Source: a virus. Taken from it: a DNA stretch of 32,561 bases. Position numbers and translations under genes: made by a program. The stretch spans positions 1 to 32,561 of the IMG/VR virus record IMGVR_UViG_3300009100_000032, one strand, 5' to 3'. This document shows positions 14,678 to 32,559 of the stretch, piece by piece (position 1 is the stretch's first letter; the number at the start of each line of letters is the position of its first letter). The notes under the pieces were generated by a model. That model saw nothing but the letters and a program-made list of their open reading frames with translations, did no database searches and had not been told where the DNA came from.

Positions 14678-15220
14678 ATGAAAATCTTGGGTCTGGACCT
14701 CGCGACGAGCACGGGCTATGCATACAACGATGATCAGAACCAGTTTCACTGTGGTTCGTGGCTGCTGGCTACCGAAGCAGAACTTAAAGCGGCTCGCAAA
14801 CAACGTCTCAATCGCCGACTAGACCCTCGCGTGGTTCAACTTTTTAAATTGACTCAGGGCCTGCATACATTACATTGCTTCGACGTGATCGTATTTGAAG
14901 ACGTTGAATTTTCCAGCTACACTTTGCAGTGTCAACTCTGGGCCAGCTTTCGCGCCGCGATCTGGCTCGCTCCCATGGCGCACAAGCAGCCCGTTTTCGA
15001 AACCGTCCCCGTGCAGACGCTGAAAAAGTTTGCTACCGGCCACGGTGGAGCAACCAAAAGCATGATGGTCTCCGCGCTTGTCAAACAGGACTCTCGTTTC
15101 TCGCGTCACGTGGACCCCGAGATGGCAGTGTTCAACGGATGGCCAGTAAACGACGACGCCGTGGACGCCACGTGGCTCTGGAAATGGGCCAAGCTCCATT
15201 TAGGAAGAATGAAAGTATGA
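14678..15220 (+). CDS. RuvC-like Holliday junction endonuclease
   Basis: 180 residues of the RNase H-fold RuvC type. Acidic catalytic candidates are D7 in ILGLDLATSTGYA (3-15), E74 in IVFEDVEF (71-78) and D160 with D163 in NDDAVDATWLW (158-168). This is the normal D-E-D-D pattern. It would cut branched DNA made during phage replication and recombination before packaging. Its ATG follows the sigma factor TAG without a gap. The short LFK/HTLH region between the first two motifs is family-typical. It overlaps the next gene by the ATGA junction. Confidence 0.85.
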   Translation: MKILGLDLATSTGYAYNDDQNQFHCGSWLLATEAELKAARKQRLNRRLDPRVVQLFKLTQGLHTLHCFDVIVFEDVEFSSYTLQCQLWASFRAAIWLAPMAHKQPVFETVPVQTLKKFATGHGGATKSMMVSALVKQDSRFSRHVDPEMAVFNGWPVNDDAVDATWLWKWAKLHLGRMKV

Positions 15221-15957
15221 ACAAAACGATTCCCATACCGAGCCGGGAGCAGGTTACCAATCTGCAAGTCAGCACGATTCTCAGTTCCATTCAGACGCTG
15301 ATGCCGTTTTTCCATAGTAGTGATTGGAAAGATGGTGGCGTGATGGATGAATCGACTAAGTTTAGCGTGCAGACGACAATGATCAAGCTCTGCAATCGTT
15401 TGGATATGGTCATGGATGACAATGACCGCTGGAGCATGAAAAGCACCGGGGAACTGGAAAAACATTTGTCGAATCTTTACTCCGAGCACGCCCGGACGCT
15501 CAAACTGCAACAGCAACAGCTTTACTACCTGAACCGGCCCCACGTTCGGCACAGTCCTTCGCTCTACCGTCTGGTAGACGGTTCGTGGCTCGCCATTCTG
15601 GGCAACCTCGACGATATCAATAACGCCGTCGTAGGTGTCGGCGGCTCGCCTGCGCAAGCGCTCGAAGCATTCGACGACATGTTCAATGGCAAAATTCCCA
15701 CCCATCTTCAGCCGTGGATGGAAGTGCGGGAAGAAGCAATTAAAAATAATTTACAACCCCCAACAAAAGAGCAATATGACAAACAAAAGATGGACGACCG
15801 AAGAAGTCGCGGAACTGACAAAAATGAAGGCGGCGGGATACAGCCCGGAAACGATAGCGGCGGCTCTAGGCCGGACCAAGAAAGCGGTGGAGATCAAACT
15901 GGACCATCTCCCGACCCCAACAGCCCCTACAACTTCGACGGTCCTCCCGGCATCTGA
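15217..15957 (+). CDS. Hypothetical protein with overprinted acidic tail
   Basis: 246 residues from the ATG at 15217 (MNKTIPIPSREQV), preceded by AGGAAGAATGAAAGT, a weak Shine-Dalgarno-like run. Residues 1-185 look folded: a helical N-terminus, LEKHLSNLYSEHARTLKLQQ, then RLVDGSWLAILGNLDDINNA and a helical end with QPWMEVREEAIKNN. The rest (from about residue 187) is Gly/Ser/Asp/Pro-rich and shares 182 bp with the start of the next gene in another frame. I recognise no family. The tail may be an overprinted extension rather than part of the ancestral protein, or the gene may end later than it once did. Confidence 0.65.
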   Translation: MNKTIPIPSREQVTNLQVSTILSSIQTLMPFFHSSDWKDGGVMDESTKFSVQTTMIKLCNRLDMVMDDNDRWSMKSTGELEKHLSNLYSEHARTLKLQQQQLYYLNRPHVRHSPSLYRLVDGSWLAILGNLDDINNAVVGVGGSPAQALEAFDDMFNGKIPTHLQPWMEVREEAIKNNLQPPTKEQYDKQKMDDRRSRGTDKNEGGGIQPGNDSGGSRPDQESGGDQTGPSPDPNSPYNFDGPPGI

Positions 15958-17044
15958 AGTGGAGGACAAATCCCGCGTAGATTACTGGCGCAAACGCGCT
16001 GGTGAACTGGAGAAGGCCCTTGCCAAGGCCGAACAGTCTCAGACCGCCGTGGAAGTGTTGTGCGAGCACGTGTTGGAAATGGCTCCCAAGTCATACCAGC
16101 CGATGCCCAACGTGGTTCGCGACTGCGCAGTCCGAATCCCGACTTCGTCCCCGCAATCCGCTGTGGCACTTTTTTCGGACACGCACATCGGGGCAATCGT
16201 TCACAAAGAACAAACGCTGGGCCTTGGCCATTACAATTTCGAAATTTTTCTTCGGCGTCTAGCGCGCTTCGGTCGTTCGATTCGCAGCATTCTGAAAGAC
16301 CACACGACGACGCAGATTTCAGAGCTTGTCGTTCCGATTCTCGGCGACATGATCGATGGCGCACTGTCACACAGTGCCGAGTCGGGCCAGCCCAACACCA
16401 TCTTGGCTCAATTCTATGCTGGCGGGCACGCTATCGCACAATTCTTGCGCGATCTCAGCGATCTGGCACCGATGCGAGTCTACGGCTGCGTCGGCAATCA
16501 CACTCGCTGGCAGAATCAACATCGCATGCCGTCGAAAAATCGCAACAGCAACATGGACATGCTGCTCTATCTCTACGTGCAAGCCCTGACGCGTGACATT
16601 CCCAAAATTCAGTGGAACCTAAACTGGCAACCGTTCGCGGTGTTCGACGTTCAGGGTTACACGATGTATTGCGGCCACGGCGACAACCTCCGAGGCGGCG
16701 ACAAAGCGCTCGGCATCCCGGCGCACGCCATGGGACGAATGGTCAGCACAACGTCGCAACTATTCACGCGAGAGGACATGCCCGCTCCGCATTACTATTG
16801 CGTCGGTCACTTGCATCGACCCATTTCCGTCCCGCATTCGCGTGGCGAGGTGATCGTCAACGGTGCGTTCCCCGGCATCGACGGATTCGCACTCGGTGAG
16901 TATTTCAACTCGTCGTATCCGTCGCAAAAATTCTGGCTGATGCATCCGAAGTTTGGCCGCTCGGCCACTTACGATCTGCGGCTCGACATAGGCGACGAAA
17001 CGCCTCACGGCTACAACCTCCCGGAGGTATTCCCTTGTGCGTAA
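15776..17044 (+). CDS. Metallophosphoesterase with N-terminal Myb/HTH-like domain
   Basis: 422 residues. The start at ATG 15776 is chosen because RWTTEEVAELTKMKAAGYSP and LGRTKKAVEIKL (5-42) form a Myb/SANT-like three-helix DNA-binding unit. A Pro/Thr linker and a coiled-coil-like helix (68-100) follow. The calcineurin-like catalytic domain has SDTH (134-137), GDMID (190-194), GNHTR (240-244), CGHGD (299-303) and GHLH (344-347), all metal ligands in place. Family members are phosphodiesterases or nucleases such as Mre11/SbcD, or phosphatases. Here the DNA-binding domain suggests a DNA substrate, which is inference. The first 182 bp overlap the preceding gene in another frame. Confidence 0.85.
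   Translation: MTNKRWTTEEVAELTKMKAAGYSPETIAAALGRTKKAVEIKLDHLPTPTAPTTSTVLPASEVEDKSRVDYWRKRAGELEKALAKAEQSQTAVEVLCEHVLEMAPKSYQPMPNVVRDCAVRIPTSSPQSAVALFSDTHIGAIVHKEQTLGLGHYNFEIFLRRLARFGRSIRSILKDHTTTQISELVVPILGDMIDGALSHSAESGQPNTILAQFYAGGHAIAQFLRDLSDLAPMRVYGCVGNHTRWQNQHRMPSKNRNSNMDMLLYLYVQALTRDIPKIQWNLNWQPFAVFDVQGYTMYCGHGDNLRGGDKALGIPAHAMGRMVSTTSQLFTREDMPAPHYYCVGHLHRPISVPHSRGEVIVNGAFPGIDGFALGEYFNSSYPSQKFWLMHPKFGRSATYDLRLDIGDETPHGYNLPEVFPCA
17023..17027 (+). promoter_or_regulatory. Strong Shine-Dalgarno GGAGG before a GTG start
   Basis: GGAGG at 17023-17027, 9 nt before the GTG at 17037, is the clearest Shine-Dalgarno sequence in the window and decides this start, which lies inside the end of the metallophosphoesterase gene. 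Confidence 0.6.
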
Positions 17045-18119: not shown

Positions 18120-18278
18120 TTAGTCCCTCAAATTGCGTTTCTTGACAAGGTCATCGGCGTGCTTTTCCTCGGCGTCCAAGCGCTCTCGCACTTCATCCCA
18201 AAATTCTTGTTCTTGTGGGACCGTCAGTGCCAGTCTGGCCGCTGCAATTAGCTCTTTTTTGTTCTCAATATTTTTCAT
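18120..18278 (-). CDS. Small charged protein, 52 aa
   Basis: ATG at 18278 and TAA at 18120, minus strand. The ATG overlaps the stop of the giant gene in an ATGA junction, strong evidence for translation. The product begins MKNIENKKELIAAARLA and continues with QEQEFWDEVRERLDAEEKHA, then VKKRNLRD, a highly charged and probably single long helix that could form a coiled coil. It fills what otherwise looks like a 160-bp gap. No family is recognised; an assembly or chaperone role for the giant protein is only a guess from position. Confidence 0.6.
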   Translation of the reverse strand: MKNIENKKELIAAARLALTVPQEQEFWDEVRERLDAEEKHADDLVKKRNLRD

Positions 18279-21200
18279 TCGTTTGCTCCCGCTAAGGCAC
18301 GCGCTTTAGCCAGAAACTGCTCTCGGGCCTTTTGGCGTCGTGCATCTTTTTGTGCTTTCGACATAGGTAAATCTCGCTGAACTTGGGGCAAAGTCAAGTT
18401 ACTTTTTATGCGTTCTCGGACCTCGGGTAGGCGCTTCATCTGCTCACGAAAATCACCCAAATCCAGCCTACTCCATCCATTTTCGGCCCAAAGCTTTTTC
18501 TCTGCGAACCACATTGCTGCCTGAAGGGCCGAGGGCTTCATGCCCACCTGCGCGGCGGCGTGGCGAAACGCCTTTTGGGCGAAATCAAAATCCTTGTCCG
18601 TCACAGGGGCGATATTCTTGGGCATGATGCGCCAGCGTTCTTGACCTTCGTAGCCAATTCGCCGCATCGTCCGATCTGCCCACAGATCGATTGTTGCTTC
18701 ATCGCTCGCACCGATCAAGTTCTCGACGAAATTCAAAGTCTTCGGACCGCGCGCCTTGGTCAACCACTGCCGGGCAAAAACTTGGAGCACGGGCAGCGAG
18801 TGAATGCCGTAAAGGTTGCCGTTGGTTTGCCGGGGTTTCAGATCGTGCTTCTCAATCCAGTGCGCTAGAAACGAGGCAGGCGTCGGTCTCTTGGGCGGAT
18901 TGGGAATCCGGCCCGCCTGCCATTCTCTGTTATACCACGGTTTCCATCTGTCGGTCGCAATCATATCGAGACCCTGATTGAATTTCGAAATGACTTTTGC
19001 AAACCGTCCGGCTCGAAAACTCTCGATGGCGTCTACGGCGTAGCCGAAATTAGTTTCGACGCTGGTCTGAGGACTCGTAGCCGCGAGAAGTTCCGCCATG
19101 AGTTGTGCATCGGTCCCAAATTCTTTCTTAAGCAAGGGCGTAAACTCGCCATACCAGTCAGCCCCCGCTTTGAACACCGGGTCGTTCGAATTTTCTTTTG
19201 CCAGTTGCACGAGTCTATCCCCGAACGCTTTGACGGCGGCTTCTTCGGAACCAGCCTTTTTAAAAAGTGGAGAGCCGATAATGTCGGAGGCAATCATCTC
19301 GTTTCGGTCGCGAGGAACAATGGCTTCCGGGAAATGGTCCTCTAACGCCTTGGTAGACATTTCTGATAACTCTTTGTTGGTCAAAAATGCTTTGGGCGCT
19401 TTCTCGCCAAATAAATCTTCTTTACCTTTGGGCTGAAATTTAACCGCCTCACCGGCAAGCAGCGACGGCAGAGCCGCTTTGATTTGCTCAACTGTATTCA
19501 AGACGGTCTCACCTGTGCCCCCCGATTCTACGGTTTCGTTTTTTACCGCATCCCAGATCGACACCTGATTATTGTTACGCGCAAATTGTAGAGTGTTTTC
19601 GCGATGCTCTTGCGGCACAACGGCATTGATGTCAATGGATGCTTGGTCACCTTCTCCAAATTTGAAAACACCCGCGACCACATCGTCGCCAAGAAGTTCT
19701 TTGTAGGGTGCGATAGCCTCGCGAAAATTCTCTGGTGTCAAATCTTTGATCGGCACGTTCACACTCGCCAGCGTGACGATATCAGATTCACCGGACGGCT
19801 TCCACACGTCTCCGGTTTTAGTAAATGTTTGACCCGATGACTCGCCTTCCTGAATTTTTTCCAACTCGATGGTGAGAGGATGATACCGGCGCATCTGTTC
19901 AAACATATGACGGCCCGGACGCGCTCGTTGGCGTGCTTGTTCTTCTACGCGACGGCCCGCGTCACCCTCAGGTTGCAATTGCGCTTTGGAAACCGCCTTC
20001 TCAAACAGACGTTCAGACGCCTGACCAGTCTCACGCTTCTCACCGATATCACTGAACGGCAGCATGGCGGCTTTTTCTTTGTCGTCCAAAGTAAAAATAC
20101 TGACTTCGTTGTAGTCGTCGAGCTTCTCCAGTTTGTTGCCGCTCAACAGAGACACCCCGATGCGGTCAATGTTAGACGCGTTGGCGTCGATGAAATTGCG
20201 AACCGCCTCGCGCTGCCTCGGCCAGTCTTTAGTCCGGGCTTCAACCATAAGCATTCCGTTGCTGTAATCCCAACTCAAACGCACAAAGCCTTTGTTGATT
20301 GCGCCAATACGATTGTCTTGGGTCTCGTCGTCGGGAAGCTTATACTGCTTTCGCACTTCGGGATTCTCGTTGAGGTATTCGTGGTGCCACTGGCCCCCAA
20401 TATTCACGACTTTGCCGTTCGGCAACACCCACGCTTTACTGAAGCCAGCCTTCGCTGGTTTCATCTTCAGTTCTTTTTTGGGTTGTGGCTGCATCTGGAC
20501 CAAAGTGTCCCCTATTTCGGCCCCAGTGTCAACGGTATCTTTCATTGACCCCGTGTTCGTGGCGGCTTCGTATGCCTCTCGAAAAAATTGAATTTTGGAC
20601 CCAAAGGAAGCGGCGGCTTCCATCTTTTTAACATCCTTGCTGGCGATGGCGTCCCGCATTACCGTCTTGCCTTGTTCCTTCAACGCTTCGTGAATCATTA
20701 ACAGAGAATCCGGGTTATCGCTACGCAGACCAAGCTGTCGCGCGGCCTCTGTGAAGCCACCGGTCTTTGCCATAGACTGTGCCCACGTCGAGAATTCTTC
20801 GTCGCTTAACGCCAGCACTTCCTCGGCGCTCTTGGGCTGAAACCTTGCGTTCAGTTTGGGACCCATAAGCTGGCTGGTTTCAAGGCCGGGCCGATTCTGT
20901 TCATCCATCGCACCGGGCTTCGATTCCTGAGAAATTTGCTGCATCTCTTTCGCGCGCTCGAACGCTTCCTCGCGCGTCAAAAATTCACCGGGCGTGTTCG
21001 TAGTGAACCCATCGGCGAACGGACCCTTAGCGCCAACCGCACGCGCTTTTTCTTCTGCGGCACCATGCCAAAAGCCTTCCCAGACTTTGCCACGCTCATC
21101 TTTGATTGCTGCGGACTTGACGGCGCGCTCGCTTGATGACGGTTGAAAACCTGCTGAGAGAGTGAGGACGTTGCCGCGAAACTCGGGCAACTCACCAGCG

Positions 21201-24200
21201 ACTTGAACGTCCTTAATATTTTCCAAATTCAAGCGCTGCTGAGCTTCGATAAACTCCGGCATCGCGACGCCTTTGGCTTGTGCAGCCGTTTCGATCTGCT
21301 GGCGAAGCGGATTCACTTCTTTAATCGGCTGACCAGCGATGCCTTGGCGTTCGGCCTCCGCTCCAGTAAATTCCCCGCGAGGAATTACCGGGATTTCGGT
21401 CCGGCCCGGTTGCGTCGCTTCGCTAACCGCTTGACCTGCGAGGTTGAGTGGGAGCTTGCCCTTCTGCACACGCGGCGTGTCGGGAAGTTTGATGCCGAAA
21501 AGCATGCTGATGAAATCGGCTTTAAGTTGTGGAAGCGCTGTGGCCTGCCCACGCACTGGGGGCGCATAGAATCCTCGCTCGGCGATCTGGCGAGGCACAA
21601 CCAGCGACTCACCGGCACCTGTGCGACCGCCCATTTGATTCTGAACGAAAGTCTGAACGTCTTTAAAAAGTTCCTGCCAGCCCTCGGGTGTGAACGTGCC
21701 TTCCTTAACCGGATACGGCGACGCGTCGGCGACGCCAAGCTCTTGAAGCTTCGCGGCCAGTTTGTGCGCGTTGGATGCAAACACTTCGGGTGCCCATCCC
21801 AAGATTTGATATTTGCCGCTCTTGAGCTTCAACACTCGGTCGGGGAAAAAATTCTTCTCCCACAACGCGCGAGCCTCGGGCGGCATGGTTCGAAACGCTT
21901 CGATAATGGCCCGGCGTGCTTCGCGGTTGGACGTAATCGCACCGGCTGGCTCGTCTGGCGCAGACAAATAATTGACCTTCAGTCCCGCTTGCTGCGCGAT
22001 AGCTTCCGCGACCGAACCAAGGATTTCGCGAGGTGATTGCGTGCCTGCTGTAATAGGAGTTGTAGGCGCATCCTCGGCGGCGGCTCGGGCTTCGTCGGCG
22101 GGAGATACTTTCTCAGGTTCTGTGGGCGTAGGCAAGGGTTCATCTGGTGTAACAGTTACAGGCGGTTTGATTTCACCCGGCCTAGCGGTAGGACGAGGTT
22201 CAACAAGTGACGGAGCTTCTCGCACTGCCTCAGTAACACGAAATCGGGGAGCCACTTCGCCAATCTGCGAAAGACGTTCCGGTGACAGAGGTTCGCCACC
22301 AAGGGTGCTGACGAGTTGCGCAACGATGCGCGCCAGCCTGCCGGTTAGCCCGGACACATTCTGTAGGCTCGCACCCCCGTGCTTAAACACCATGTCGAAA
22401 TTTTCTGCGGCCAGTTCACGCGCGAGGTATGAGTCCGCGATGGCGGTAGCTTCTTGCGGCGAAAGCAAATCGCGCCATACACGTTGAGCGATATCATTTG
22501 GCTGGACATTTGGATTGGCCTGCACCGCTTTGTCCATCACGTCGCCTAAAATCGCTTTGACCCGGTCTTGCACAAACCCGGACGGAGGTTCCGTGCCCGT
22601 GGCCGCACGGTATTCGTTGCCAACTTCCATGGCGATTTTTTCTTTAGCGTAATCCAACCCAGTGCCGGTGCTGTCCAAGATAACTTCGCGCCAGTCACCT
22701 TCGCCGATACGCGACGCATAACGCTGGCCCTCTTGCTCCCATCTAGGACCGTATTCTTCGCGAACGATCTGATCGATAGCTTGATTCGCCGTTTCTCCCA
22801 GCACGTCTTGAATCGCATGAAACGATTCGTGCGGAGCGGCGTCAACGTTGCGCGCAATGATTACATTGCGCGGTTGACCGCTTGCGTCCGGTAAAGCCGT
22901 CACAAAGAACCCTTCGGTCTGGGAAAACTGACGGGCCTGATCGGGCGAAAGTCCGGCGTTTAAAAGATTCCGTTCGAGCGTAGGAGCGTCCTTGGCCAAA
23001 AACACATCTGTGTCGGTATGAGACCCTTTGAGAAATTGACGGATTGCGTTTAAACGAGTTTGAACTGCGGGCGGTGCGTTCTGAATTGCATCCGCATGCA
23101 TCGCGTCTAAACTTGGGAGCTTTCCCGACGACGGCGTTACAACATCACTGCCCCATGCGCGAGGACCCACGATCTGACCGCTGATAATTCGAGCGCCAGC
23201 CCGTTTGCCAGCACCTAGACCGCCGAAAAATGCACCGATGCCTACCGATTCAGTGTCGCGAGGTGCTTCGGACGTGAGTGCAGCCGTCCCGATGTCGAAC
23301 GCGAGACCTTTACCGATCTCCGCAGCCGCCATAGGCGTAGCACCGATCACATCCTTTGCCAATTGCCGCGTGCCTGTGGTTACGGGAGCCGCGCCAGCGA
23401 TTTCCTTACCCGCCTCCGCAATTGCTTTGCCGCCTTTCGAAATTTTGCCGCCGATTTTGGAAACGATCTCGCCTCCCTTGAGTCCGGCCAGTGCGCCGAT
23501 GGGTCCAGCCTCAATCGCGCCCTTCACCATGCCCGCAGCAGGCGCAACGATCTTCACTGCCTTGCCGCCAAGGTCTGTGAGCTTGCCTGCGGCCTGAATC
23601 GCGCGACCGCCAGTGACTTCTGCCACATCGCCAGCCTTCTGTATGACTTTTTCAGCCGCCGCGCCGACTTTAGCAGGCACTAGCTTACCCACACCCTGAA
23701 AAGCTTTGCCAAAAGTGTAAAATGAGAGAGGGTCACCTGCCGCAAGCTGTGCGGTTTCCTCTGGACGAATCGGTTTGCCCGCAGCTTCCAATTCTTTGCG
23801 AACTTCACCACCTGCCGCTTCGAGCAACGCGCCTTTACCTTTCAGAATTTCTTCTTCGGTCTCGCCGGAGCCAACGTCGCTCCACAAATCGCTCAATTTT
23901 TCTTCCGGCGTCTGCTCAGCGAACGCGCGACGAACTTTTCCAATCGCTTTTTCGCCCATGCGAGCGACGCCGAACGTCGCGGCTTCCGTTCCCGCTAAAT
24001 TTTCCATGATTCGACGCTGACCTTCCTGCGCCAATTCGGTCTGAAAGCCCGGACCTTGGCCGGTAAGCTCTCCCGCCATGCCGATGAACGGCATTGCGAA
24101 CGCATTCGCGTAATTCCACGCTTGTTTGCCGAACCCTTTGGCAATGTCGAACACGGTGCGAGCCACTTTGCCCGGACCGGGGATGTCCGAAAGCTCAAAA

Positions 24201-24445
24201 CCACGATCTTTGATGCGGCTGTGAACGTCGGCGATCTTTTGCACCGTCGCTTGGTCCTGCCACAGGTCTTTGTTGCGACGAAACTCGCTCACCAAGTCGA
24301 AATTATCCTTGTCCTTAATCGCGAGATCGAAAAGTTCGTCAGCAGAAAAATCTCGAATGGGATTTAACGCGGCTGGAGCGCCTTGCTGCGCAGCATTTTC
24401 ATACTCCGCGATTTCCTCGGGAGTCAACTGAATCGGGTTCGCCAT
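18275..24445 (-). CDS. Giant multidomain virion or ejection protein, 2056 aa
   Basis: One uninterrupted frame. Residues 90-130 and 240-410 hold Gly/Ala-rich hydrophobic or amphipathic segments (AAGMVKGAIEAGPIGALAGL) that could cross or disturb membranes. HESFH (539-543) is an HExxH zinc-protease motif. A Pro/Thr/Glu-rich linker (740-805) follows. Later segments are separated by recurrent (F/M/L)QP motifs at about 1100, 1202, 1318, 1490 and 1670. Residues 1338-1450 form a compact domain (VVNIGGQWHHEYL, GFVRLSWDYSNG). The C-terminal 1685-1985 segment (LLAATSPQTSVETNFGYAVD, RGPKTLNFVENLIGASDEAT, IDLWADR) resembles a helical domain seen in phage proteins that recalls HhH-type DNA glycosylases. 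This architecture suits a polyvalent protein injected with the genome. Domain functions are inference. Confidence 0.8.
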   Translation of the reverse strand: MANPIQLTPEEIAEYENAAQQGAPAALNPIRDFSADELFDLAIKDKDNFDLVSEFRRNKDLWQDQATVQKIADVHSRIKDRGFELSDIPGPGKVARTVFDIAKGFGKQAWNYANAFAMPFIGMAGELTGQGPGFQTELAQEGQRRIMENLAGTEAATFGVARMGEKAIGKVRRAFAEQTPEEKLSDLWSDVGSGETEEEILKGKGALLEAAGGEVRKELEAAGKPIRPEETAQLAAGDPLSFYTFGKAFQGVGKLVPAKVGAAAEKVIQKAGDVAEVTGGRAIQAAGKLTDLGGKAVKIVAPAAGMVKGAIEAGPIGALAGLKGGEIVSKIGGKISKGGKAIAEAGKEIAGAAPVTTGTRQLAKDVIGATPMAAAEIGKGLAFDIGTAALTSEAPRDTESVGIGAFFGGLGAGKRAGARIISGQIVGPRAWGSDVVTPSSGKLPSLDAMHADAIQNAPPAVQTRLNAIRQFLKGSHTDTDVFLAKDAPTLERNLLNAGLSPDQARQFSQTEGFFVTALPDASGQPRNVIIARNVDAAPHESFHAIQDVLGETANQAIDQIVREEYGPRWEQEGQRYASRIGEGDWREVILDSTGTGLDYAKEKIAMEVGNEYRAATGTEPPSGFVQDRVKAILGDVMDKAVQANPNVQPNDIAQRVWRDLLSPQEATAIADSYLARELAAENFDMVFKHGGASLQNVSGLTGRLARIVAQLVSTLGGEPLSPERLSQIGEVAPRFRVTEAVREAPSLVEPRPTARPGEIKPPVTVTPDEPLPTPTEPEKVSPADEARAAAEDAPTTPITAGTQSPREILGSVAEAIAQQAGLKVNYLSAPDEPAGAITSNREARRAIIEAFRTMPPEARALWEKNFFPDRVLKLKSGKYQILGWAPEVFASNAHKLAAKLQELGVADASPYPVKEGTFTPEGWQELFKDVQTFVQNQMGGRTGAGESLVVPRQIAERGFYAPPVRGQATALPQLKADFISMLFGIKLPDTPRVQKGKLPLNLAGQAVSEATQPGRTEIPVIPRGEFTGAEAERQGIAGQPIKEVNPLRQQIETAAQAKGVAMPEFIEAQQRLNLENIKDVQVAGELPEFRGNVLTLSAGFQPSSSERAVKSAAIKDERGKVWEGFWHGAAEEKARAVGAKGPFADGFTTNTPGEFLTREEAFERAKEMQQISQESKPGAMDEQNRPGLETSQLMGPKLNARFQPKSAEEVLALSDEEFSTWAQSMAKTGGFTEAARQLGLRSDNPDSLLMIHEALKEQGKTVMRDAIASKDVKKMEAAASFGSKIQFFREAYEAATNTGSMKDTVDTGAEIGDTLVQMQPQPKKELKMKPAKAGFSKAWVLPNGKVVNIGGQWHHEYLNENPEVRKQYKLPDDETQDNRIGAINKGFVRLSWDYSNGMLMVEARTKDWPRQREAVRNFIDANASNIDRIGVSLLSGNKLEKLDDYNEVSIFTLDDKEKAAMLPFSDIGEKRETGQASERLFEKAVSKAQLQPEGDAGRRVEEQARQRARPGRHMFEQMRRYHPLTIELEKIQEGESSGQTFTKTGDVWKPSGESDIVTLASVNVPIKDLTPENFREAIAPYKELLGDDVVAGVFKFGEGDQASIDINAVVPQEHRENTLQFARNNNQVSIWDAVKNETVESGGTGETVLNTVEQIKAALPSLLAGEAVKFQPKGKEDLFGEKAPKAFLTNKELSEMSTKALEDHFPEAIVPRDRNEMIASDIIGSPLFKKAGSEEAAVKAFGDRLVQLAKENSNDPVFKAGADWYGEFTPLLKKEFGTDAQLMAELLAATSPQTSVETNFGYAVDAIESFRAGRFAKVISKFNQGLDMIATDRWKPWYNREWQAGRIPNPPKRPTPASFLAHWIEKHDLKPRQTNGNLYGIHSLPVLQVFARQWLTKARGPKTLNFVENLIGASDEATIDLWADRTMRRIGYEGQERWRIMPKNIAPVTDKDFDFAQKAFRHAAAQVGMKPSALQAAMWFAEKKLWAENGWSRLDLGDFREQMKRLPEVRERIKSNLTLPQVQRDLPMSKAQKDARRQKAREQFLAKARALAGANE

Positions 24446-24450
24446 AAAAA

Positions 24451-26046
24451 TTAGGGAACGTCGTAATATTGACCATCGGGACCGCGCTGGACGCGACGAC
24501 CGGTGGAAAGTGTAATCACGGGACCCGCTGCTCCCTGTGTGGGGGCCGCACTGGCACCAGCCGGAGTAACGGGACCAGAAACTTGCTCACGCAAACTCTC
24601 ATACTGTTGCGGCGTCATGCGGCCACTGATGACCTGCTCCATAGCGGTCTCAACTGCTTGACGTGCTTTGGCCTTATTGACTTGCACGGACTTATCGTCA
24701 CCGACCACCGGGAAGAAAGTGCGATCATACCACGCTTGCTCTTTCGGAGAAATCGCGGCACCGGACTCCAAACGCAACAAACCTTGCATCCATGACGCTG
24801 CCGAGGTAACATAGTTTCGTTCCTCCGCAGTCATGCCGGTAAGACTCGCAGCGATCTGTCCCGTAGTGCCAGCTTTGTAAGCAGCCATGCGGGCCTGAGA
24901 TGGAATCGTAGTGGGGTCAAAGCTTGGATTCTGTTCCAAGCTGTTCAAAACTTTGTTCGAAGCAGCCGCACGATTCAACGCGATCAACGCGCGACCCTGC
25001 ACTTCAGTGTAAGGCTTGCTCGGCGCTTCTTTCTTGCTCGTCACCATGCCCAATGGACCGAATGCTTGACCGGGCGTAGCCTCAGCAGGCGCGGACGGCA
25101 TCTCGATCATCGGTTTAGCTGCCGATTTCGGTTTCACAACGTCAGGCAAAAACTGGCTCAACTGCGCATCGCGAGAAACAGCTTCCGCTTGCGAGACCGG
25201 ACCTTTCGGGAACACCGGAATTTCTGCCGGTTGTGCTGGCACAGCCGGAGTTACGGGTGCAGCAGGCGCAGGAGTCGCCGCAGGTTGCACTTGACCAGCT
25301 TCACCGAAAACATTTGGAGCCTTTGGCTGACCGAGAGCGTCGAACATGGCGGGCGTCATCGTGGCAACCGTCGCCTTATACTGCTGGAGCTTCTTAAATG
25401 TCTCAGCCGGAACTTGCTGGCCACGAAAAGTGATGAACGGTGTCTGACTGGGACCCTTCACAGTGGCACCGGATGCGTCCACGACTTCGATCTCAGGATT
25501 TTCAACCTTCGATTCTTTGTCGAACGATTCGGCTTTCGATTTTTCCGACATGAAATTCAGCAGGACGCCGAATCGGCGAGTGATCTCGGCTTGATCAGCT
25601 TGTGTTAATCCCTTAGAGGGGTCAACGACGACGGGCCAACCGGCCTTGGTGAGAGCGTTTTGCATTTCCAGCACGCCCGAACCCTTCATCTGCGCGTCCA
25701 GAATCGCGGCTTTCAGTTCAGCTTCCTTCGCGGTCTGAGCCGTAGGAGCAATGGCCGCACGAGACGACGCTTCCGCGCCCTTCGCTTTCCGTTCTGCACT
25801 GCGCGCAGCGATAGCTTCGGGGCCTTGTTCCTCTTTCGCGAGCAGTTCTTCCAGTTTAGTCTTCTCCCGAGCGGCACCCGCGCCAGAAACGCGCGCGGAA
25901 ATATCTTCGGCAGTGATGAAGCCCTTTCGGACGGCATCCGATAGCGCGTCTACCGCACTCGGCGTCACCACTTCGCTGGCACGCGCTACGATAGACGACG
26001 GGTCGATACGACCCAATGGAGTTTGGGGAGCAGATTCGAGACCCAT
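24451..26046 (-). CDS. Ala/Pro-rich internal virion protein, 531 aa
   Basis: 531 residues starting in the context AATTTAATTTATG. The N-terminal 120 residues are helical and charged (REKTKLEELLAKEEQGPEAI). The middle (about 250-330) is Ala/Pro-rich linker (PAATPAPAAPVTPAVPA). The C-terminal part is helical again with GLLRLESGAAISPKEQAWYD and an ending GRRVQRGPDGQYYDVP. The RLESGAAIS...W.R.F.P..GD stretch recalls a helical segment seen in several phage virion proteins, but I cannot name the family. It lies directly upstream of the giant gene with a 5-bp gap, the position of ejection proteins in short-tailed phages. Confidence 0.65.
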   Translation of the reverse strand: MGLESAPQTPLGRIDPSSIVARASEVVTPSAVDALSDAVRKGFITAEDISARVSGAGAAREKTKLEELLAKEEQGPEAIAARSAERKAKGAEASSRAAIAPTAQTAKEAELKAAILDAQMKGSGVLEMQNALTKAGWPVVVDPSKGLTQADQAEITRRFGVLLNFMSEKSKAESFDKESKVENPEIEVVDASGATVKGPSQTPFITFRGQQVPAETFKKLQQYKATVATMTPAMFDALGQPKAPNVFGEAGQVQPAATPAPAAPVTPAVPAQPAEIPVFPKGPVSQAEAVSRDAQLSQFLPDVVKPKSAAKPMIEMPSAPAEATPGQAFGPLGMVTSKKEAPSKPYTEVQGRALIALNRAAASNKVLNSLEQNPSFDPTTIPSQARMAAYKAGTTGQIAASLTGMTAEERNYVTSAASWMQGLLRLESGAAISPKEQAWYDRTFFPVVGDDKSVQVNKAKARQAVETAMEQVISGRMTPQQYESLREQVSGPVTPAGASAAPTQGAAGPVITLSTGRRVQRGPDGQYYDVP

Positions 26047-26049
26047 AAA

Positions 26050-26766
26050 TTAAATTGCCCAACCACCGGGCATTGCTGGACCAGTCCAACCGCTTCGACG
26101 CGGAACCGAATAGCTGGACGCTGGCATGTTTAACCAATTCAGTTCACCTTCATCACGTAAAACTTTTGCGCGGTCCGAGTATTTTTGCATCAGAATGTTT
26201 CCAACGCTTCCGGTCGTATATTTCGCCGCATCTTTCATCTGGCTACGAAGGTATCCCATAGCCGCTTGACTGGCTTCTCGTTGACGGGCCGCTTCATTTC
26301 CCCGCGCGACTTGCATGGCTTGCTGTTGAGCGAGCACGGTCTGAGCTTTAGTCAAATCCGGGTCTTGCTGCGGACGCACCGCACTCAAAATCTGTTCCAA
26401 CAGTGTAGCCACGTCAGTTTGACCGGGCAAATTTTGATTCGCACCACCTTGGAGAAAAGGTGGAAGCGCCGCACTTGCATTAGTCGCAGCAGGAACCACC
26501 GAGGTGGCAGAATTTGCACCGCTCGTTGCGCCGGGAATTATCACCGTGCCCGTTCCGGCTGCGGCGGAAGCGCCGGGACCAGTAGCCCCCGGAGTGACAA
26601 CCGAAGACGGTGCAGGCGCGGGTTCATTAAAAGCGCGACGAGTCACGCCTCCAGACAAACGAAGCTTCTGCTCGGGTGTCAGCACTTGACCGGGCTTGAC
26701 CTGTGGATTGACCACCTGATTGATTAATGAGCTAGGCCACAAACTGGCCGCTGTCCAACCTGCCAT
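26050..26766 (-). CDS. Putative ejection-type virion protein, 238 aa
   Basis: 238 residues. A Trp-containing N-terminus (MAGWTAASLWPSSLINQVV) is followed by Ala/Gly/Ser/Thr-rich low-complexity sequence (50-110), then a helical Gln/Ala/Arg-rich region (LAQQQAMQVARGNEAARQRE and MGYLRSQMKDAAKYTTG), and an aromatic end with WTGPAMPGGWAI. Composition and position between the other Ala-rich proteins fit an internal or ejected virion protein. I recognise no family. The start sits in TTATAAATTATG without Shine-Dalgarno. A 3-bp gap separates its stop from the next gene. Confidence 0.6.
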   Translation of the reverse strand: MAGWTAASLWPSSLINQVVNPQVKPGQVLTPEQKLRLSGGVTRRAFNEPAPAPSSVVTPGATGPGASAAAGTGTVIIPGATSGANSATSVVPAATNASAALPPFLQGGANQNLPGQTDVATLLEQILSAVRPQQDPDLTKAQTVLAQQQAMQVARGNEAARQREASQAAMGYLRSQMKDAAKYTTGSVGNILMQKYSDRAKVLRDEGELNWLNMPASSYSVPRRSGWTGPAMPGGWAI

Positions 26767-26769
26767 AAT

Positions 26770-27741
26770 TTATAATCGGTATGCCGTCCCAGCGTTGCCT
26801 TGAAAGGCCGTCGCCTGTTGACCGCCCGGACCTATAACCGGTTTGTTTAAAATTGCATTCAAAATATTCCCAGCCGCCGATCCAGCCGCCCCCAATGTGC
26901 TACCCAAAATTTGCGCCTGTCCCATACCCCCACGAGCCGCTACATCCGCCGCGCTCTGAGCTAACTGATTGGACGCGCCCACGCGCGCGAGCCAAATGTT
27001 CGCGATGTCAGTTCCACCTAGACCCGCCTCGGGAACCATTTGATTCGATTGCTGCAAAACACTTTGAGTCGCTTGAAGCTTGCCCAAACTTTTCGCAGCG
27101 AGATTCGGAAAAAGTGATCCAAGGATACTCTGACGACGAACGTCCATCTCCTGTGCGGCGGTAGCGAGTTGTGTCGCACGCGCCTGACGATCAGCTTTAA
27201 GTTGCAACGCTGCGGTGCCGATCAACTCGCGCAAAATGTTCCCTCCCAATCCCCTCCCACTAGCCTTCCCTGTCGCCGAACCGCCTTGTTCCAAACCGGC
27301 CTGAACCAATTCCGCTTGAACATCCGGGGGCAATGTCGCTCCGGCGTTAAGCTCGTTCATCGCTTCGCCAATCAGCTTGGTCTTAACATCCTCCAGACCT
27401 TGGGTGCCGCGAATCGCTTCCTCAGCCGCGACACTGGCCACGCGATCTGCCTCATCACCCTGCAATCCAGCAAGTCGATCAGAAATCAGTCGTTCGGCCT
27501 GATACCGTTGCTTCAGCAACTCAGGGTCTACGATGCCTTGAAGACGCAACCGCTCCTGCGCGCGCTGAACATCCGCTTGCCGAGCTTTATTGCCGATTTT
27601 GGTGGGGTCAAGCTGTTTAAATACCCACTCCCGTTGTTTTTCAAGCGCCTCAATCTGCGCCTCTGTCGCGTCCTTGATGGCATCGGCCTGCATCATGCCG
27701 CCGACGATGCCGCCTACCGCGCCGAAAAGTGAGTCCCACAT
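26770..27741 (-). CDS. DNA-ejection/internal virion protein (T7 gp14-like position)
   Basis: 323 residues. The N-terminus is MWDSLFGAVGGIVGGMMQAD, a Gly-rich hydrophobic segment, followed by long charged helices (ATEAQIEALEKQREWVFKQL and AQERLRLQGIVDPELLKQRY). The C-terminal half is Gly/Ala/Gln-rich with AAGSAAGNILNAILN. A hydrophobic Gly-rich start followed by a helical body and Ala/Gln-rich tail is characteristic of proteins that short-tailed phages inject to form a channel through the cell envelope, such as T7 gp14. Sequence identity with that protein is not claimed. It follows the fibre-like gene after a 21-bp gap and precedes two more ejection-type genes. Confidence 0.65.
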   Translation of the reverse strand: MWDSLFGAVGGIVGGMMQADAIKDATEAQIEALEKQREWVFKQLDPTKIGNKARQADVQRAQERLRLQGIVDPELLKQRYQAERLISDRLAGLQGDEADRVASVAAEEAIRGTQGLEDVKTKLIGEAMNELNAGATLPPDVQAELVQAGLEQGGSATGKASGRGLGGNILRELIGTAALQLKADRQARATQLATAAQEMDVRRQSILGSLFPNLAAKSLGKLQATQSVLQQSNQMVPEAGLGGTDIANIWLARVGASNQLAQSAADVAARGGMGQAQILGSTLGAAGSAAGNILNAILNKPVIGPGGQQATAFQGNAGTAYRL

Positions 27742-27762
27742 ATGTAAACAGTGCCTTTTTTA

Positions 27763-28584
27763 TTACTCTTTGACAAGCGTCCACAGGGCCACTGTAGCGG
27801 GAAAGTTGACATTCACGCCACCGGGGTCTGAGTCGATTAAAGTGGTTTCACCGTAGGTTTCGAACGCTGCGCGCTCGGCCACACCTGCCGACACCGTGAG
27901 CACGGTTTCGGGAGAGCCGCCTGCATCCTTCGTCGCACCGGAAATCCATCGGCCACGTAGATTTTGGTTCGACGCGCCGAACAACACCCAGCCCGGATTC
28001 GCAGTGAGCGCATCCGTCAACGTGTTGAACGAAACATGCTTGATGTCGCCGGGCACGCCAGAAACGGTGCGCCACAAATTACGCTCCCACCAAATCAAGC
28101 AGGCGATGGTCGTGTCGTAAAACTGTTGAAAGTCCACCGGGTTCGTAGGACGAACGGAAGTGGGACCAGACAAAGTAATACCCGTAAACGGAATCCATCC
28201 CGCTCCGTTGTTAACATACCAACCAATCGGACTGCCGATGCTCGGATCGGACTCTGTCGCGTCTTTGGTGGTGCGCAACCACACCGGAGGGTCGGCGGTT
28301 AACGGCGTGCTGGACCCGGTCTGAAACCACAACGTCTCCGAATCGGAAATATCCAACGGCACATAGCGCTTCAAGTCTTCGTCGAAAACATACCATTTGT
28401 TTCCGTCTTTCAACCACGGACCTACATTAGATGTCGGCTCATTGTCACCGATGAAAATAAAGTTCACGGCGGTCGGTGAGACGATTTTCATCCGACGAAC
28501 CATTTCGTTCGCCAACTGTTGTGGCGAGACGTGCAGATCACCGGGCAACTGCCCCATAGTGATGATCAAATTTGTATCATTCAT
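27763..28584 (-). CDS. Putative tail fibre or tail appendage protein
   Basis: 273 residues. The N-terminus contains LHVSPQQLANEMVRRMKI, then three modules of the form (G/P)xxxP...W....W..: GPWLKDGNKWYVFDEDLKRY, WFQTGSSTPLTADPPVWLRT and GWYVNNGAGWIPFTG. The C-terminal region (GWVLFGASNQNLRGRWISGA, then a hydrophobic end) resembles collar-like or fibre-associated domains. This architecture occurs in base and fibre proteins of tailed phages; the assignment is by layout. The ATG lies 1 bp after the stop of the preceding gene. It may bind the Cys-rich appendage protein encoded upstream. Confidence 0.55.
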   Translation of the reverse strand: MNDTNLIITMGQLPGDLHVSPQQLANEMVRRMKIVSPTAVNFIFIGDNEPTSNVGPWLKDGNKWYVFDEDLKRYVPLDISDSETLWFQTGSSTPLTADPPVWLRTTKDATESDPSIGSPIGWYVNNGAGWIPFTGITLSGPTSVRPTNPVDFQQFYDTTIACLIWWERNLWRTVSGVPGDIKHVSFNTLTDALTANPGWVLFGASNQNLRGRWISGATKDAGGSPETVLTVSAGVAERAAFETYGETTLIDSDPGGVNVNFPATVALWTLVKE

Positions 28585-28585
28585 A

Positions 28586-29899
28586 TTAGTATGCCTCTAT
28601 TCTCATGCACTCGGGACCGGGGCAACATCCCGCAATGCGTTGGTAAATTCCTACTGGGCCTTCGCCCTTGTTTTTTACACCCGTCCAAATGTCTTGGCCG
28701 AGATAACTGAAAATGTGAATCGCCCAACCGCAGCCGGTCGAATTGAACGAGCCTGATGTTCGCAAACTGGCACCGATACAAAACCCATGCAGCAAATGCG
28801 CCGGGGGCCACGGACAGCCACCGCATGGTGACGCCGGTTCGAATTCCTGTTCGATAAAATATCCGTCGTCCACTTTGACCGGAAATGTTCCGGCCCACGG
28901 AATTGGGTCCACACAATTTGTGTCAGGATAACTTTCACAATTGACGCAAGTCGTCCACGACAGCCCGCAAAGGCTGATGTCGAACAGACCTTCACTGTAA
29001 TCGACGATGCGATACCGATCTCCCGTAGGACCATAGGCGCACGTTGTGTCATCGCCCGTTTCCTCGCAAGGACCAGACGGAGGATCGGGAGGTTCGCCGC
29101 CACCTCCGCACTGTAGGTAAAGCGAAAATTTTAACTTGTTATTTCCTTGCGGATTGACCCCGATTTTACCACCCGTGTGGACGAACTGAAAATCGTAGGG
29201 CGGGGGCGTAGCCGCAAACATATCCTCTACCGTTGCGTAACACGTGAAGTCGGTGTTATACGGATTCAACGCCGAATTTGTCCCATCGTTCCATTCCGCC
29301 GTGTAGTCTTCGGGAAACTGCACCGCAAGACATGGAGACTCGCCAGAAAAATTGCTGTCCAATTCTACAACGATTTTATACGTGCCGGGTGCAAAGTTTG
29401 TGTTAGTCCCAAACCATGTCGTGACCTGATTCGGAGTAATCTTAGTGCTGAACAAAGACCATCCGCCTATACACGGACCGAAATTCCCACCGAGTGGCGG
29501 TGCGGGAGGCTCAGGAGACTCAGGCGTTCCAGTTCCATTAGGCGGACTCGGCGGACCTTCGCCTTCGGGAGTAACCGGGGTCACTACGTAATCGCCGGGC
29601 GGCACCACGATGGGTCCATTCGTAACGCACTCGTAAAGTAACACAAGCTGTCCGTTAACCACCTGATAGATGTTGTAGCAAATCGCACCCGGAAACGTTT
29701 CCCAATCGATGAAAAAAGGACCCGGAAACGTTCCGAAAATCCTTGGCTTACCCATGGGCGTCAGCTTTGTGAACAACGCGGGCAAGAAAATAGAAAGCAG
29801 TGCGATGCCCGTCGAAGCGATGGGCGGTTCGCAAGCTGCTGGCGACACATAATTAATGATTGGCCGTCGCGCGTATAAAACTTCAACGATTGAATTCAT
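28586..29899 (-). CDS. Cys-rich appendage protein with FN3-like domain
   Basis: 437 residues. After a hydrophobic start (29-46), residues 51-112 read like a fibronectin type III fold (FIDWETFPGAICYNIYQV, VPPGDYVVTPVTPEGEG). A Pro/Glu/Gly linker (112-137) leads to a beta-sandwich-like domain (140-265) and a C-terminal domain with many Cys. The protein has 20 Cys, with 14 after residue 260, including CVNCESYPDTNC, CGGCPWPP and CCPGPEC. That is unusual for a cytoplasmically assembled virion protein and suggests disulfides or bound metal outside the cell. Its place next to the fibre-like gene suggests a receptor-binding or decoration role. No family name is claimed. Confidence 0.6.
   Translation of the reverse strand: MNSIVEVLYARRPIINYVSPAACEPPIASTGIALLSIFLPALFTKLTPMGKPRIFGTFPGPFFIDWETFPGAICYNIYQVVNGQLVLLYECVTNGPIVVPPGDYVVTPVTPEGEGPPSPPNGTGTPESPEPPAPPLGGNFGPCIGGWSLFSTKITPNQVTTWFGTNTNFAPGTYKIVVELDSNFSGESPCLAVQFPEDYTAEWNDGTNSALNPYNTDFTCYATVEDMFAATPPPYDFQFVHTGGKIGVNPQGNNKLKFSLYLQCGGGGEPPDPPSGPCEETGDDTTCAYGPTGDRYRIVDYSEGLFDISLCGLSWTTCVNCESYPDTNCVDPIPWAGTFPVKVDDGYFIEQEFEPASPCGGCPWPPAHLLHGFCIGASLRTSGSFNSTGCGWAIHIFSYLGQDIWTGVKNKGEGPVGIYQRIAGCCPGPECMRIEAY
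29687..29732 (-). repeat. 13-bp direct repeat encoding a TFPG pair
   Basis: ACCCGGAAACGTT occurs at 29687-29699 and 29720-29732, 33 bp apart and in the same frame. On the minus strand both encode a TFPG-containing turn in the FN3-like domain (GTFPGP and ETFPGA). It probably reflects a small internal duplication or turn constraint rather than a regulatory site. Confidence 0.6.
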
Positions 29900-29902
29900 G
29901 CT

Positions 29903-31885
29903 TTATCCGAGACTGAAAATTCTAGGCAACAAGGATGACAGTTCCACCTCGGCGCGCTTGGTAGCGATTCGAGTGGCCACTCGGTCAGCCGCTGACTGTG
30001 ACACGACGCTCTCCGCGTCGCCAACCCCCACGGTCGTGATTCCATCCTGAGTCAACGACACCGTCTTGTTCGCAAAAAATTGTCGGAAGGCGAGATTGGC
30101 CGTCTCAGCAGCCAACTCGGCTCGGTCTTCCGATTGAACGCCGACTCCATCGAATCGAATCGCGTTAAATTTGGTTTCGTCCACGCACGCTTCATTCGTC
30201 CCGTTTGGCGGAACCGGTTCGTGCGTGCTGTAAGCTCGAATCCATCGAACTGCGGCGGGACCGTGACCGACAATCAGTAACTGAAAGCTATCATCGATGT
30301 CTTCGTTGCTTTCGGACTCGATTGGGCACGACCCGGTTTCGTCCGTCTTCTGCGCCGCTTCCTCTGTGCGCTCCACGCGAGATTGAGGTTTAAACGAGAA
30401 CAATTGCGTGGTTGCAGTGATAGGGACTTCGGTCATTAAATTACCGCGCTCCACTGAAATCGTTTTTGCGAGCACGTTCTTGTATGAACCTCGCAGTCCA
30501 CCCGCATAGAATACTCCAAAGTCGAGAGCTTCTTCTATACCAACCAAACCAATTTCCGCCCACCCAAATTTACAAAGCTCGCCAGCCGGTTTTCTTTCGG
30601 ACGATTGCCCGAAATAACCGCGAGTTTCAATCGACCACGTGATCGGACAATCGCTGTCCAACCGCTGCGAGATAAACGCTTCCCACAAACGATTGGAGCC
30701 GTCGTTATCCACTGACACGTGAAAAATTCTTTCCTGACCGGCCACGGTGCCGGACAACCATTCCACGGGACGGGTTCCCATCCAATAGCTGGCCCACGAC
30801 GCGCCGGAGTCATCGTTGATCGTCTCAATGCTGGCATCATTCAACACCCACGTATGCTTGTTGTAGTTGTCCTCGGCTGGGACACTCATCAGCAGATACG
30901 AACCGTAAGCCGCACCTGCCGCCAACGACAGATCGTCACTCAACTTCGACTTGCTGAACATCATTTCGTTGTCGCGAATGGGTAAGCGAGATGACACCTG
31001 ACTCGCGCGCGCATTGTCAAACATGACGATTCCAGACGCGCTGAACCACGATAGCCGACCAAAGCTAGAAACAACTGACCGCTGTGAAGTGCAACCGACT
31101 TTAAACACTTCAGATTGCATATTAACGGTCGTCGGCCACGAACTGCGATCACGAATGTAAGCCTGAATCAACTCTGCGTTATTGTTGGTAAACACAATCA
31201 ACTGTGGGTTTACCGTTCCGGGTGTCTTCACCATGGCGGTTACTTCTCCATCGAACGAAAACGAATCCGTGCCGCCGAGATAAATGCTTTCACGGAAGCT
31301 GAACGGATTGGAAATATCCGACGCGCGCACTGAATTTTTAAACGCAACCCACAGGCGGTCACCTACCCACACCATTGGTCCTCCAATCGGCGTTTCAAAA
31401 GGCTGATTACGGATATGGTCCGAGTTGGACCCATCGTAAAATGCCGGAGCCGTCAATCCGCCGTCTTGAATGATCAAAACGTTGCGAGGGTCAATAGTCT
31501 CGATGGCCGAACCTTGATCCGCTGTTTTCCGTTGCGCGGATTGCACCGTTTGGCACCAGAACACTTGCTTCGCAAACGGCGACATCAAAATATTAGGAAT
31601 CTGTTTAAACGTCAAGAAGGGCCACGTCGCAGTGTAAAGAACTCCGTCCACGCACACGATAATTTCTTCGATGCCAGATCGAGGACGAAAAAGAAATGCA
31701 CCCTGAAGCTTACCGACTGGAAGGGTCGCTACGCAGCGATACCCCGGACGACACGACAACATGCCGCCGATGTTGAGGATATTCATGCCGCTCCAGTAGT
31801 AACCGAGCGGCAGTTGCGCGGGGTCCGAGTCGGACTTCATCCCTCGGAAAAACGTCCCGTCGAAATCGTAGAGTGGAGTAGCCAT
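29903..31885 (-). CDS. Nozzle-like tail protein (tail tubular B type)
   Basis: 660 residues. The N-terminus (LYDFDGTFFRGM, then YYWSGMNILNIGGMLSCRPG) carries the signature of nozzle or tail tubular B proteins of short-tailed phages: a GG-type loop and an RPG turn. Repeated beta-blade-like segments follow, such as VWVGDRLWVAFKNSVRASDI, NPQLIVFTNNNAELIQAY, SSFGRLSWFSASGIVMFD and AAYGSYLLMSVP, consistent with a beta-propeller. The C-terminal 60 residues are helical. It would form the distal tail tube with the adaptor-like protein encoded just upstream. The start overlaps that gene's stop as TAATG. The assignment is by pattern, without alignment. Confidence 0.7.
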   Translation of the reverse strand: MATPLYDFDGTFFRGMKSDSDPAQLPLGYYWSGMNILNIGGMLSCRPGYRCVATLPVGKLQGAFLFRPRSGIEEIIVCVDGVLYTATWPFLTFKQIPNILMSPFAKQVFWCQTVQSAQRKTADQGSAIETIDPRNVLIIQDGGLTAPAFYDGSNSDHIRNQPFETPIGGPMVWVGDRLWVAFKNSVRASDISNPFSFRESIYLGGTDSFSFDGEVTAMVKTPGTVNPQLIVFTNNNAELIQAYIRDRSSWPTTVNMQSEVFKVGCTSQRSVVSSFGRLSWFSASGIVMFDNARASQVSSRLPIRDNEMMFSKSKLSDDLSLAAGAAYGSYLLMSVPAEDNYNKHTWVLNDASIETINDDSGASWASYWMGTRPVEWLSGTVAGQERIFHVSVDNDGSNRLWEAFISQRLDSDCPITWSIETRGYFGQSSERKPAGELCKFGWAEIGLVGIEEALDFGVFYAGGLRGSYKNVLAKTISVERGNLMTEVPITATTQLFSFKPQSRVERTEEAAQKTDETGSCPIESESNEDIDDSFQLLIVGHGPAAVRWIRAYSTHEPVPPNGTNEACVDETKFNAIRFDGVGVQSEDRAELAAETANLAFRQFFANKTVSLTQDGITTVGVGDAESVVSQSAADRVATRIATKRAEVELSSLLPRIFSLG

Positions 31886-32559
31886 TATACAATGTCGTAA
31901 TCCCTGCGGTCCGTGAGCGAACCTTCGCCATCAAGGACCTGAATCGGACTCACCGTAGTGGTCGGTTCGGCCTTCTGCTGGGCTTCGATCTCCAACCGCG
32001 TGGCGTTCAACTCGAACTGTTGCGCGTTGCCTAAATCATTAGAGGAATAAAATTTGCGCGCCTGCACACCGAGCAGAAACGCCATGCGACTGCGCATCGG
32101 CACATGATCAAACCTACTTTGAAAGACCGGATTGTGTCGCATATAAGCTACACGCACCCACGTCGCCGGGCGGTTGATTTTGATGCGCCGGAACTGTGGA
32201 ATGGTCTCGTCCGGCTCGTAAATTCCCAGCAGAACATTGTCCTGCGTCGCCAGCTTGATGGACCCCGCTGTCATCTCTTTGAAAATTCCGGTAATGCGCG
32301 CCACGGTCGGAGCAATGGTGTCCGGGACCGCGACGCCGTAGATTGTCGGCACCTGATAACCGTCCATCCATACGCCATCCACTTGACGACGCAGCTTTTG
32401 CCCTTCGGAATCATATCCGAAAATTATTAATTGCTTACCGTTATCGTCGGGCATCTGTAACTGAGCCACGAGCTTTTTGGGTTCGACGATGTCGCGGTAG
32501 GTGTAATGCCACGCACCCTGATCTTGCCACGACCAGTCGCATCGTTCACGACAGTCGCC
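31885..32559 (-). CDS. Adaptor-like tail protein, 5' end cut by window edge
   Basis: The minus-strand frame is open to the right edge, so at least 30 residues upstream of the GTG at 32469 belong to it and the true start is outside. The visible part is beta-rich at first (LIIFGYDSEGQKLRRQVDGV, DGYQVPTIYGVAVP) and then PATWVRVAYMRHNPVFQSRF, MRSRMAFLLGVQARKFYSSN and a helical NAQQFELNATRLEIEAQQK. That end (bulky basic residues, then aromatic helix, then an ALR-type helix) resembles adaptor or neck proteins placed before the nozzle gene in podovirus-like phages. The function is inferred from this pattern and position. Confidence 0.55.
   Translation of the reverse strand, partial: GDCRERCDWSWQDQGAWHYTYRDIVEPKKLVAQLQMPDDNGKQLIIFGYDSEGQKLRRQVDGVWMDGYQVPTIYGVAVPDTIAPTVARITGIFKEMTAGSIKLATQDNVLLGIYEPDETIPQFRRIKINRPATWVRVAYMRHNPVFQSRFDHVPMRSRMAFLLGVQARKFYSSNDLGNAQQFELNATRLEIEAQQKAEPTTTVSPIQVLDGEGSLTDRRDYDIV

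Follow-up and report, generated by a model that had tools for sequence, protein, structure and literature searches.

The virus record IMGVR_UViG_3300009100_000032 (IMG/VR; 32,561 bases, hereafter the window, without end repeats and probably a fragment) encodes a giant protein of 2056 amino acids, best explained, with a probability of roughly 0.6, as a polyvalent protein that is packaged, ejected with the genome and self-cut, its C-terminal piece then acting as a glycosylase. The open frame, its family, the exchange of its cassettes, the joint motif between them, the predicted folds and the invariant residues were computed here. An earlier reading, made from the sequence alone, had proposed a large multi-domain protein of polyvalent type, and in outline this is upheld, with a zincin-like domain, a WYL-like domain, four cassettes (A-D) and a HhH-GPD-like domain found in one chain. 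The single frame of 2056 residues that it had described was likewise recovered, as were the positions of its motifs (HESFH at residues 539-543, SPQTSVETNF from 1791 and ATIDLWADR from 1917); the strand, which had been left unstated, is the minus strand, and the plus-strand reading across 18275-24445 is full of stops. Since a homologue of 52% identity and many relatives of the individual domains were found in viral contigs, the frame is more than a product of chance.

18275..24445, minus strand: gene of the 2056-residue giant polyvalent-type protein; ATG start, stop codon included

The C-terminal glycosylase-like domain

The C-terminal domain is predicted to adopt a HhH-GPD-type glycosylase fold and is a putative glycosylase/AP (apurinic/apyrimidinic) lyase. 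The domain and its two predicted catalytic residues are located as follows.

18449..19228, minus strand: HhH-GPD glycosylase-like domain (DUF7178), residues 1740-1999; PF23802 match, structural matches and alignments
18740..18742, minus strand: Lys1902, predicted Schiff-base nucleophile; alignment
18686..18688, minus strand: Asp1920, predicted catalytic Asp; alignment

The match to PF23802 (DUF7178) had an E-value of 3e-13 and a score of 50.6 bits, relative to a curated cut-off of 27. An AlphaFold model of residues 1330-2020, built with 61 sequences (predicted local distance difference test, pLDDT, 87.8), was used to retrieve Foldseek candidates, which were compared by VIA-align. The best structural match was the OGG of M. 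jannaschii (Z-score 10.5, 180/205 residues, root-mean-square deviation (rmsd) 3.8), followed by the OGG of T. maritima (9.7), two entries of D. radiodurans endonuclease III-3 (7.5 and 7.2), the OGG of C. acetobutylicum (7.0) and Pa-AGOG (6.5), all six being HhH-GPD glycosylases; subsequent matches had Z-scores of 5.5 and below and lay mostly on another domain of the model. A glycosylase-like fold had been anticipated at residues 1685-1985, and its presence, now placed at approximately 1740-1999, is supported both by these six best matches and by the invariance of the catalytic Lys and Asp.

Lys1902 and Asp1920 were invariant among the 60 sequences listed and in four standalone homologues from actinophages. 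Their spacing of 18 residues equals that of Lys120 and Asp138 in E. coli endonuclease III, the catalytic residues of that enzyme, with which hhalign pairs them without a gap in between. As both residues remain invariant while overall identity drops to approximately 30-40%, the glycosylase part appears to have kept its catalysis.

The conserved N-terminal block

In the closer relatives, residues 1-1102 are conserved as one unit, which comprises three parts.

23135..24445, minus strand: conserved N-terminal region with Gly/Ala-rich helices, residues 1-437; 82 homologous frames with 42 distinct sequences
22211..23134, minus strand: zincin-like metallopeptidase domain, residues 438-745; alignment, AlphaFold model and lethal-factor fold matches
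22817..22831, minus strand: HESFH motif, residues 539-543; sequence and alignment of relatives
22415..22417, minus strand: Glu677 of RELAAEN, predicted third zinc ligand; alignment of relatives
21155..22099, minus strand: WYL-like barrel with a long insert, residues 783-1097; AlphaFold model and structural matches

In the first of these, Gly and Ala together account for approximately 30% of residues 101-150 and for 32-46% across residues 201-450. The Gly/Ala richness of the runs that the sequence-only reading had called hydrophobic is thus real, whereas the membrane segments it had proposed did not survive: the highest Kyte-Doolittle mean (19-residue window) in the whole protein was 1.09, below the usual transmembrane level of approximately 1.6, and transmembrane segments were therefore rejected for the giant protein. 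A few relatives reach 1.7-1.95 in this region, and Gly/Ala-rich amphipathic helices could still touch membranes.

The zincin-like domain that had been suspected around residues 539-543 was corroborated by the HExxH motif, by Glu677, which is invariant across every relative covering that site, and by a model of residues 438-1102 (35 sequences, pLDDT 85.5), in which a three-stranded sheet is followed by the helix bearing HESFH and then by a helix with Glu677, together with a modest structural match to a known zincin fold. The peptidases of polyvalent proteins have been tied to anthrax lethal factor by profile search (Iyer et al., PMC5512222).

The WYL-like barrel is an addition to what had been read from the sequence. 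Seven WYL proteins were the top structural matches of this region, the matching parts being split by the long insert, and the WYL domains of BrxR, CapW and PafBC matched parts of residues 790-1098 with Z-scores of 9.0-10.5 over 82-102 residues (rmsd 2.0-6.6). BrxR and CapW are regulators of anti-phage systems. Because Pfam returned no WYL match within residues 783-1097, the assignment is treated as a fold-level lead.

Relatives of the giant protein

The closest full-length homologue is a protein of 2145 amino acids in a second viral contig, which shares the 52% identity mentioned above. Scans of viral contigs with domain alignments retrieved 442 stretches with relatives of the C-terminal domain and 25 with relatives of the HESFH domain, and complete relatives ranged from approximately 1,800 to 5,169 amino acids, encoded on phage contigs of up to approximately 75 kb. 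Two open frames, L070:1480-16986 (5169 amino acids) and L084:1066-14472 (4469 amino acids), have the glycosylase domain in the middle. A first scan of genome contigs yielded no C-terminal domain, and a second found it in seven contigs of metagenome-assembled genomes, mostly within giant open frames. When predicted viral structures were searched with the C-terminal model, giant proteins of uncultured phages were retrieved, some of them named ART-PolyVal-like or large polyvalent protein.

A tblastn search of 50,697 phage records (INPHARED) with the whole protein gave no match, and hence no full-length relative among cultured phages, and the C-terminal domain alone gave just weak matches, to actinophages and to one Roseobacter phage. 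Sequence searches of the PDB with the whole protein and with both domain profiles returned nothing relevant.

Exchangeable cassettes and F-x-P joints

Beyond residue 1102, the relatives vary in the kind, order and copy number of their cassettes. The arrangement in the window protein, in the direction of translation, is as follows.

21140..21148, minus strand: joint FQP, residues 1100-1102
20909..21130, minus strand: cassette A, residues 1106-1179; 27 distinct copies, as many as three in one protein and not at a fixed position
20834..20842, minus strand: joint FQP, residues 1202-1204
20543..20815, minus strand: cassette B, residues 1211-1301; 27 distinct copies
20486..20494, minus strand: joint MQP, residues 1318-1320
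20054..20446, minus strand: cassette C, residues 1334-1464; 26 distinct copies, within the model of residues 1330-2020
19970..19978, minus strand: joint LQP, residues 1490-1492
19448..19867, minus strand: cassette D, residues 1527-1666; 11 distinct copies, within the model of residues 1330-2020
19430..19438, minus strand: joint FQP, residues 1670-1672

The exchange is apparent from individual homologues. That of contig L002 carries a GNAT acetyltransferase at the place of cassette A, that of L042 carries ART-PolyVal (PF18760) and histidine phosphatase cassettes, and the giant of L096 (7648-13131) has two copies of cassette A along with further cassettes, most of them preceded by an FQP-type joint. 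The glycosylase was carried by 31/32 complete non-redundant giants with the middle domain, a figure inflated by the fact that many of these giants were found through the glycosylase domain itself.

The tripeptide FQP was counted 69 times across 61 non-redundant giants, whereas shuffles predict 15.9. Past the middle domain, one of 88 F[QKS]P occurrences fell inside a recognised cassette, although cassettes cover 40% of that length. An F-[Q/K/S]-P joint lay within 40 residues upstream of the start of cassette A in 16/25 cases, compared with 11% of random positions; the association was weaker for cassette D (2/10) and for the glycosylase (8/30). The binomial p-value of 1e-18 obtained for the joints is too strong, because the relatives are not independent. 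The joints may serve as flexible linkers or as cutting sites, or they may mark seams of recombination.

Proposed mode of action and alternatives

Under the preferred explanation, the N-terminal 1,100 residues would constitute a conserved carrier, made up of Gly/Ala-rich helices, a zincin-like protease and a WYL-like domain, behind which would stand a row of exchangeable cassettes separated by F-x-P joints, with the DNA glycosylase of HhH-GPD fold last. The giant protein would be packaged into the virion as an internal protein, to be ejected along with the genome, whereupon the zincin would cleave its own chain, or that of a sister copy, into functional parts, the cuts plausibly falling in or close to the joints. 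In the new host, the C-terminal part would then work as a glycosylase/AP lyase on DNA bases, by means of Lys1902 and Asp1920, either in the repair of lesions in the incoming genome or in an attack on host or rival DNA. We infer packaging, ejection, self-cleavage, enzymatic activity and target from the computed features, and packaging with ejection is considered the most likely fate because of the polyvalent class of the protein and the position of its gene. As regards the target, service on the phage's own DNA is slightly favoured, because the glycosylase cassette is near-constant in the sample while the other cassettes vary, in a sample that was partly drawn through the glycosylase domain and that includes L096, which is without it. 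A more specific proposal, that a large phage group injects, along with its genome, a base-excision enzyme carried as the last, releasable cassette by a protein that cuts itself with a built-in zincin recognising the F-x-P joints, is advanced tentatively and is itself doubtful.

The giant gene is the last of a minus-strand block, presumed late, and adjoins replication genes on the plus strand; plus-strand genes at lower coordinates encode a DNA polymerase, a helicase, an exonuclease, a sigma-factor-like protein and nucleotide enzymes. This setting bears on an alternative in which the glycosylase works in the producing cell or in the head, where it repairs or trims phage DNA during replication or after packaging, and the giant is no injected effector but a polyprotein that undergoes processing prior to packaging. 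A base-excision enzyme would fit alongside the phage's own polymerase, helicase and exonuclease, and cleavage of the zincin-containing DdrB of P1 is believed to precede its encapsidation (PMC5512222). However, like that of the N4 virion RNA polymerase, the gene closes the presumed late block and does not lie among the replication genes, whilst the companion ART and GNAT cassettes of relatives are typical of injected effectors; on these grounds this alternative is considered unlikely.

Somewhat less probable again is that the protein forms a structural ejection conduit or core, with zincin and glycosylase domains that act as non-catalytic scaffolds for binding DNA and protein. The loss of HExxH in a few relatives would agree with such a role, as would the N4 virion RNA polymerase, whose zincin region is required for packaging but which itself goes into the virion unprocessed (PMC5512222), yet the invariance of Lys1902 and Asp1920 at such low overall identity points to catalysis in the glycosylase part. 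The base-hypermodification enzymes of thymidine-modifying phages also have a predicted glycosylase fold, but that the HhH domain is such an enzyme, without excision, is very improbable, given that the sequences compared all keep the Lys found in excising glycosylase/lyases, that an enzyme modifying DNA at the time of replication would be oddly placed in a virion-type protein and that no thymidine-modification kinase or transferase was recognised in the window.

Several observations nevertheless weigh against the explanation of a packaged, self-cutting protein with a terminal glycosylase. The PF00730 (HhH-GPD) profile gave no match at E-values of up to 10 in ten records, whilst all control genomes were matched, so that the C-terminal domain has the fold and residues of HhH-GPD glycosylases yet falls outside that Pfam family. 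The hhalign comparison with the single endonuclease III sequence (E = 0.24) is not significant alone, and neither two-part model had a significant PDB match in a Foldseek search, probably owing to the several domains in each, the Z-scores reported here being from the second comparison. For the zincin, the nearest solved zincin-type fold is that of anthrax lethal factor residues 39-263, at a modest Z-score of approximately 6, and the motif, mostly HE(S/A)xH in relatives, is HDxxH or lost (EEMGH) in a few, hence protease activity may not be kept in all of them. The genes neighbouring the giant have weak virion matches or none. Lastly, the L096 contig encodes a protein 71% identical to the 660-residue neighbour of the giant in the window, yet its own giant carries other cassettes and is without the glycosylase.

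Neighbouring genes

The remainder of the minus-strand block precedes the giant gene.

24451..32559, minus strand: seven frames that run in the same direction ahead of the giant (531, 238, 323, 273, 437, 660 and 224+ residues)

The 660-residue protein has a weak virion-structural match (phrog_3287, 2e-6) and homologues in 15/15 related records searched. The 323-residue protein, which has a Gly-rich hydrophobic start, was considered as an internal protein akin to T7 gp14 and dropped, being unsupported in PHROGs, PDB and phage searches. A search with the PF03237 profile did not find a terminase in 11 related phage records of approximately 69-75 kb, and the head genes of this phage group look very divergent.

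Among the plus-strand genes, a nucleoside 2-deoxyribosyltransferase is encoded at 2622-3107 (PF05014, 2.8e-8), and the phrog_6361 protein at 8722-9369 has a weak match to SprT-like metallopeptidases and is a possible second zincin. The sigma-factor-like gene occupies 14015-14677 (phrog_351, 1e-16), no phage RNA polymerase having been recognised so far, and is followed by a weak RuvC-like protein at 14678-15220 and by a weak GcrA/HTH (helix-turn-helix) plus metallophosphoesterase-like protein at 15635-17044.

Significance and comparison with known systems

Proteins that phages inject are active within minutes of the start of infection. Should a base-excision glycosylase/AP lyase indeed enter with the genome, it could mend environmental DNA damage before replication, or be a weapon against host or rival DNA. 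The joint motif provides a concrete prediction of how giant polyvalent proteins get cut, a step that was proposed in 2017, and DUF7178 would gain a likely function as a glycosylase, an enzymatic prediction that is testable with the purified C-terminal domain of approximately 290 residues. DNA glycosylases are already known as a bacterial defence against phages (PMC11078745), and among the proteins that T4 injects are some that block restriction enzymes of the host (PMC12373910). In the literature no report of a phage-injected glycosylase was found, nor of a cleavage site for this protein family, nor was a DNA glycosylase domain found in the searchable polyvalent-protein literature. The class is already known, whilst the probable injection of the protein would make it a base-cutting enzyme of a kind for which no report was found.

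The window protein resembles the polyvalent proteins (Iyer et al. 2017, PMC5512222) in its giant size, zincin-like hub, exchangeable effector cassettes and phage context, the zincin-like peptidase having been described as the hub of such proteins and proposed to process them. It differs in that the survey mentions no DNA glycosylase, with 0 occurrences of 'glycosylase', 'base excision' and 'helix-hairpin-helix'; 'linker' likewise has 0, no linkers being described, and the survey's passage on WYL concerns CRISPR systems.

The standalone DUF7178 (PF23802)/phrog_3842 proteins of actinophages belong to the same family as the C-terminal domain and share its invariant Lys and Asp, and some are annotated as N-glycosylase or DNA glycosylase; they are, however, of approximately 200 residues and stand outside any giant protein, whereas in the window domain an additional insert precedes the HhH part. 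With the archaeal and Thermotoga OGG enzymes, AGOG and endonuclease III, the domain shares the predicted fold and a Lys-Asp pair at endonuclease III spacing, although sequence identity to HhH-GPD glycosylases is very low and the PF00730 match is absent.

As regards the N4 virion RNA polymerase (gp50), no RNA polymerase module was recognised in the window protein with Pfam or PHROGs, a PF00940 scan for RNA polymerase matched nothing, control genomes included, and the hhalign alignment with the N4 zincin region was limited to the strand-HExxH motif. Nonetheless, both are giant proteins with a zincin-type HExxH region, and each is encoded by the last gene of a block, late in N4 and presumed late in the window, beside opposed replication genes.

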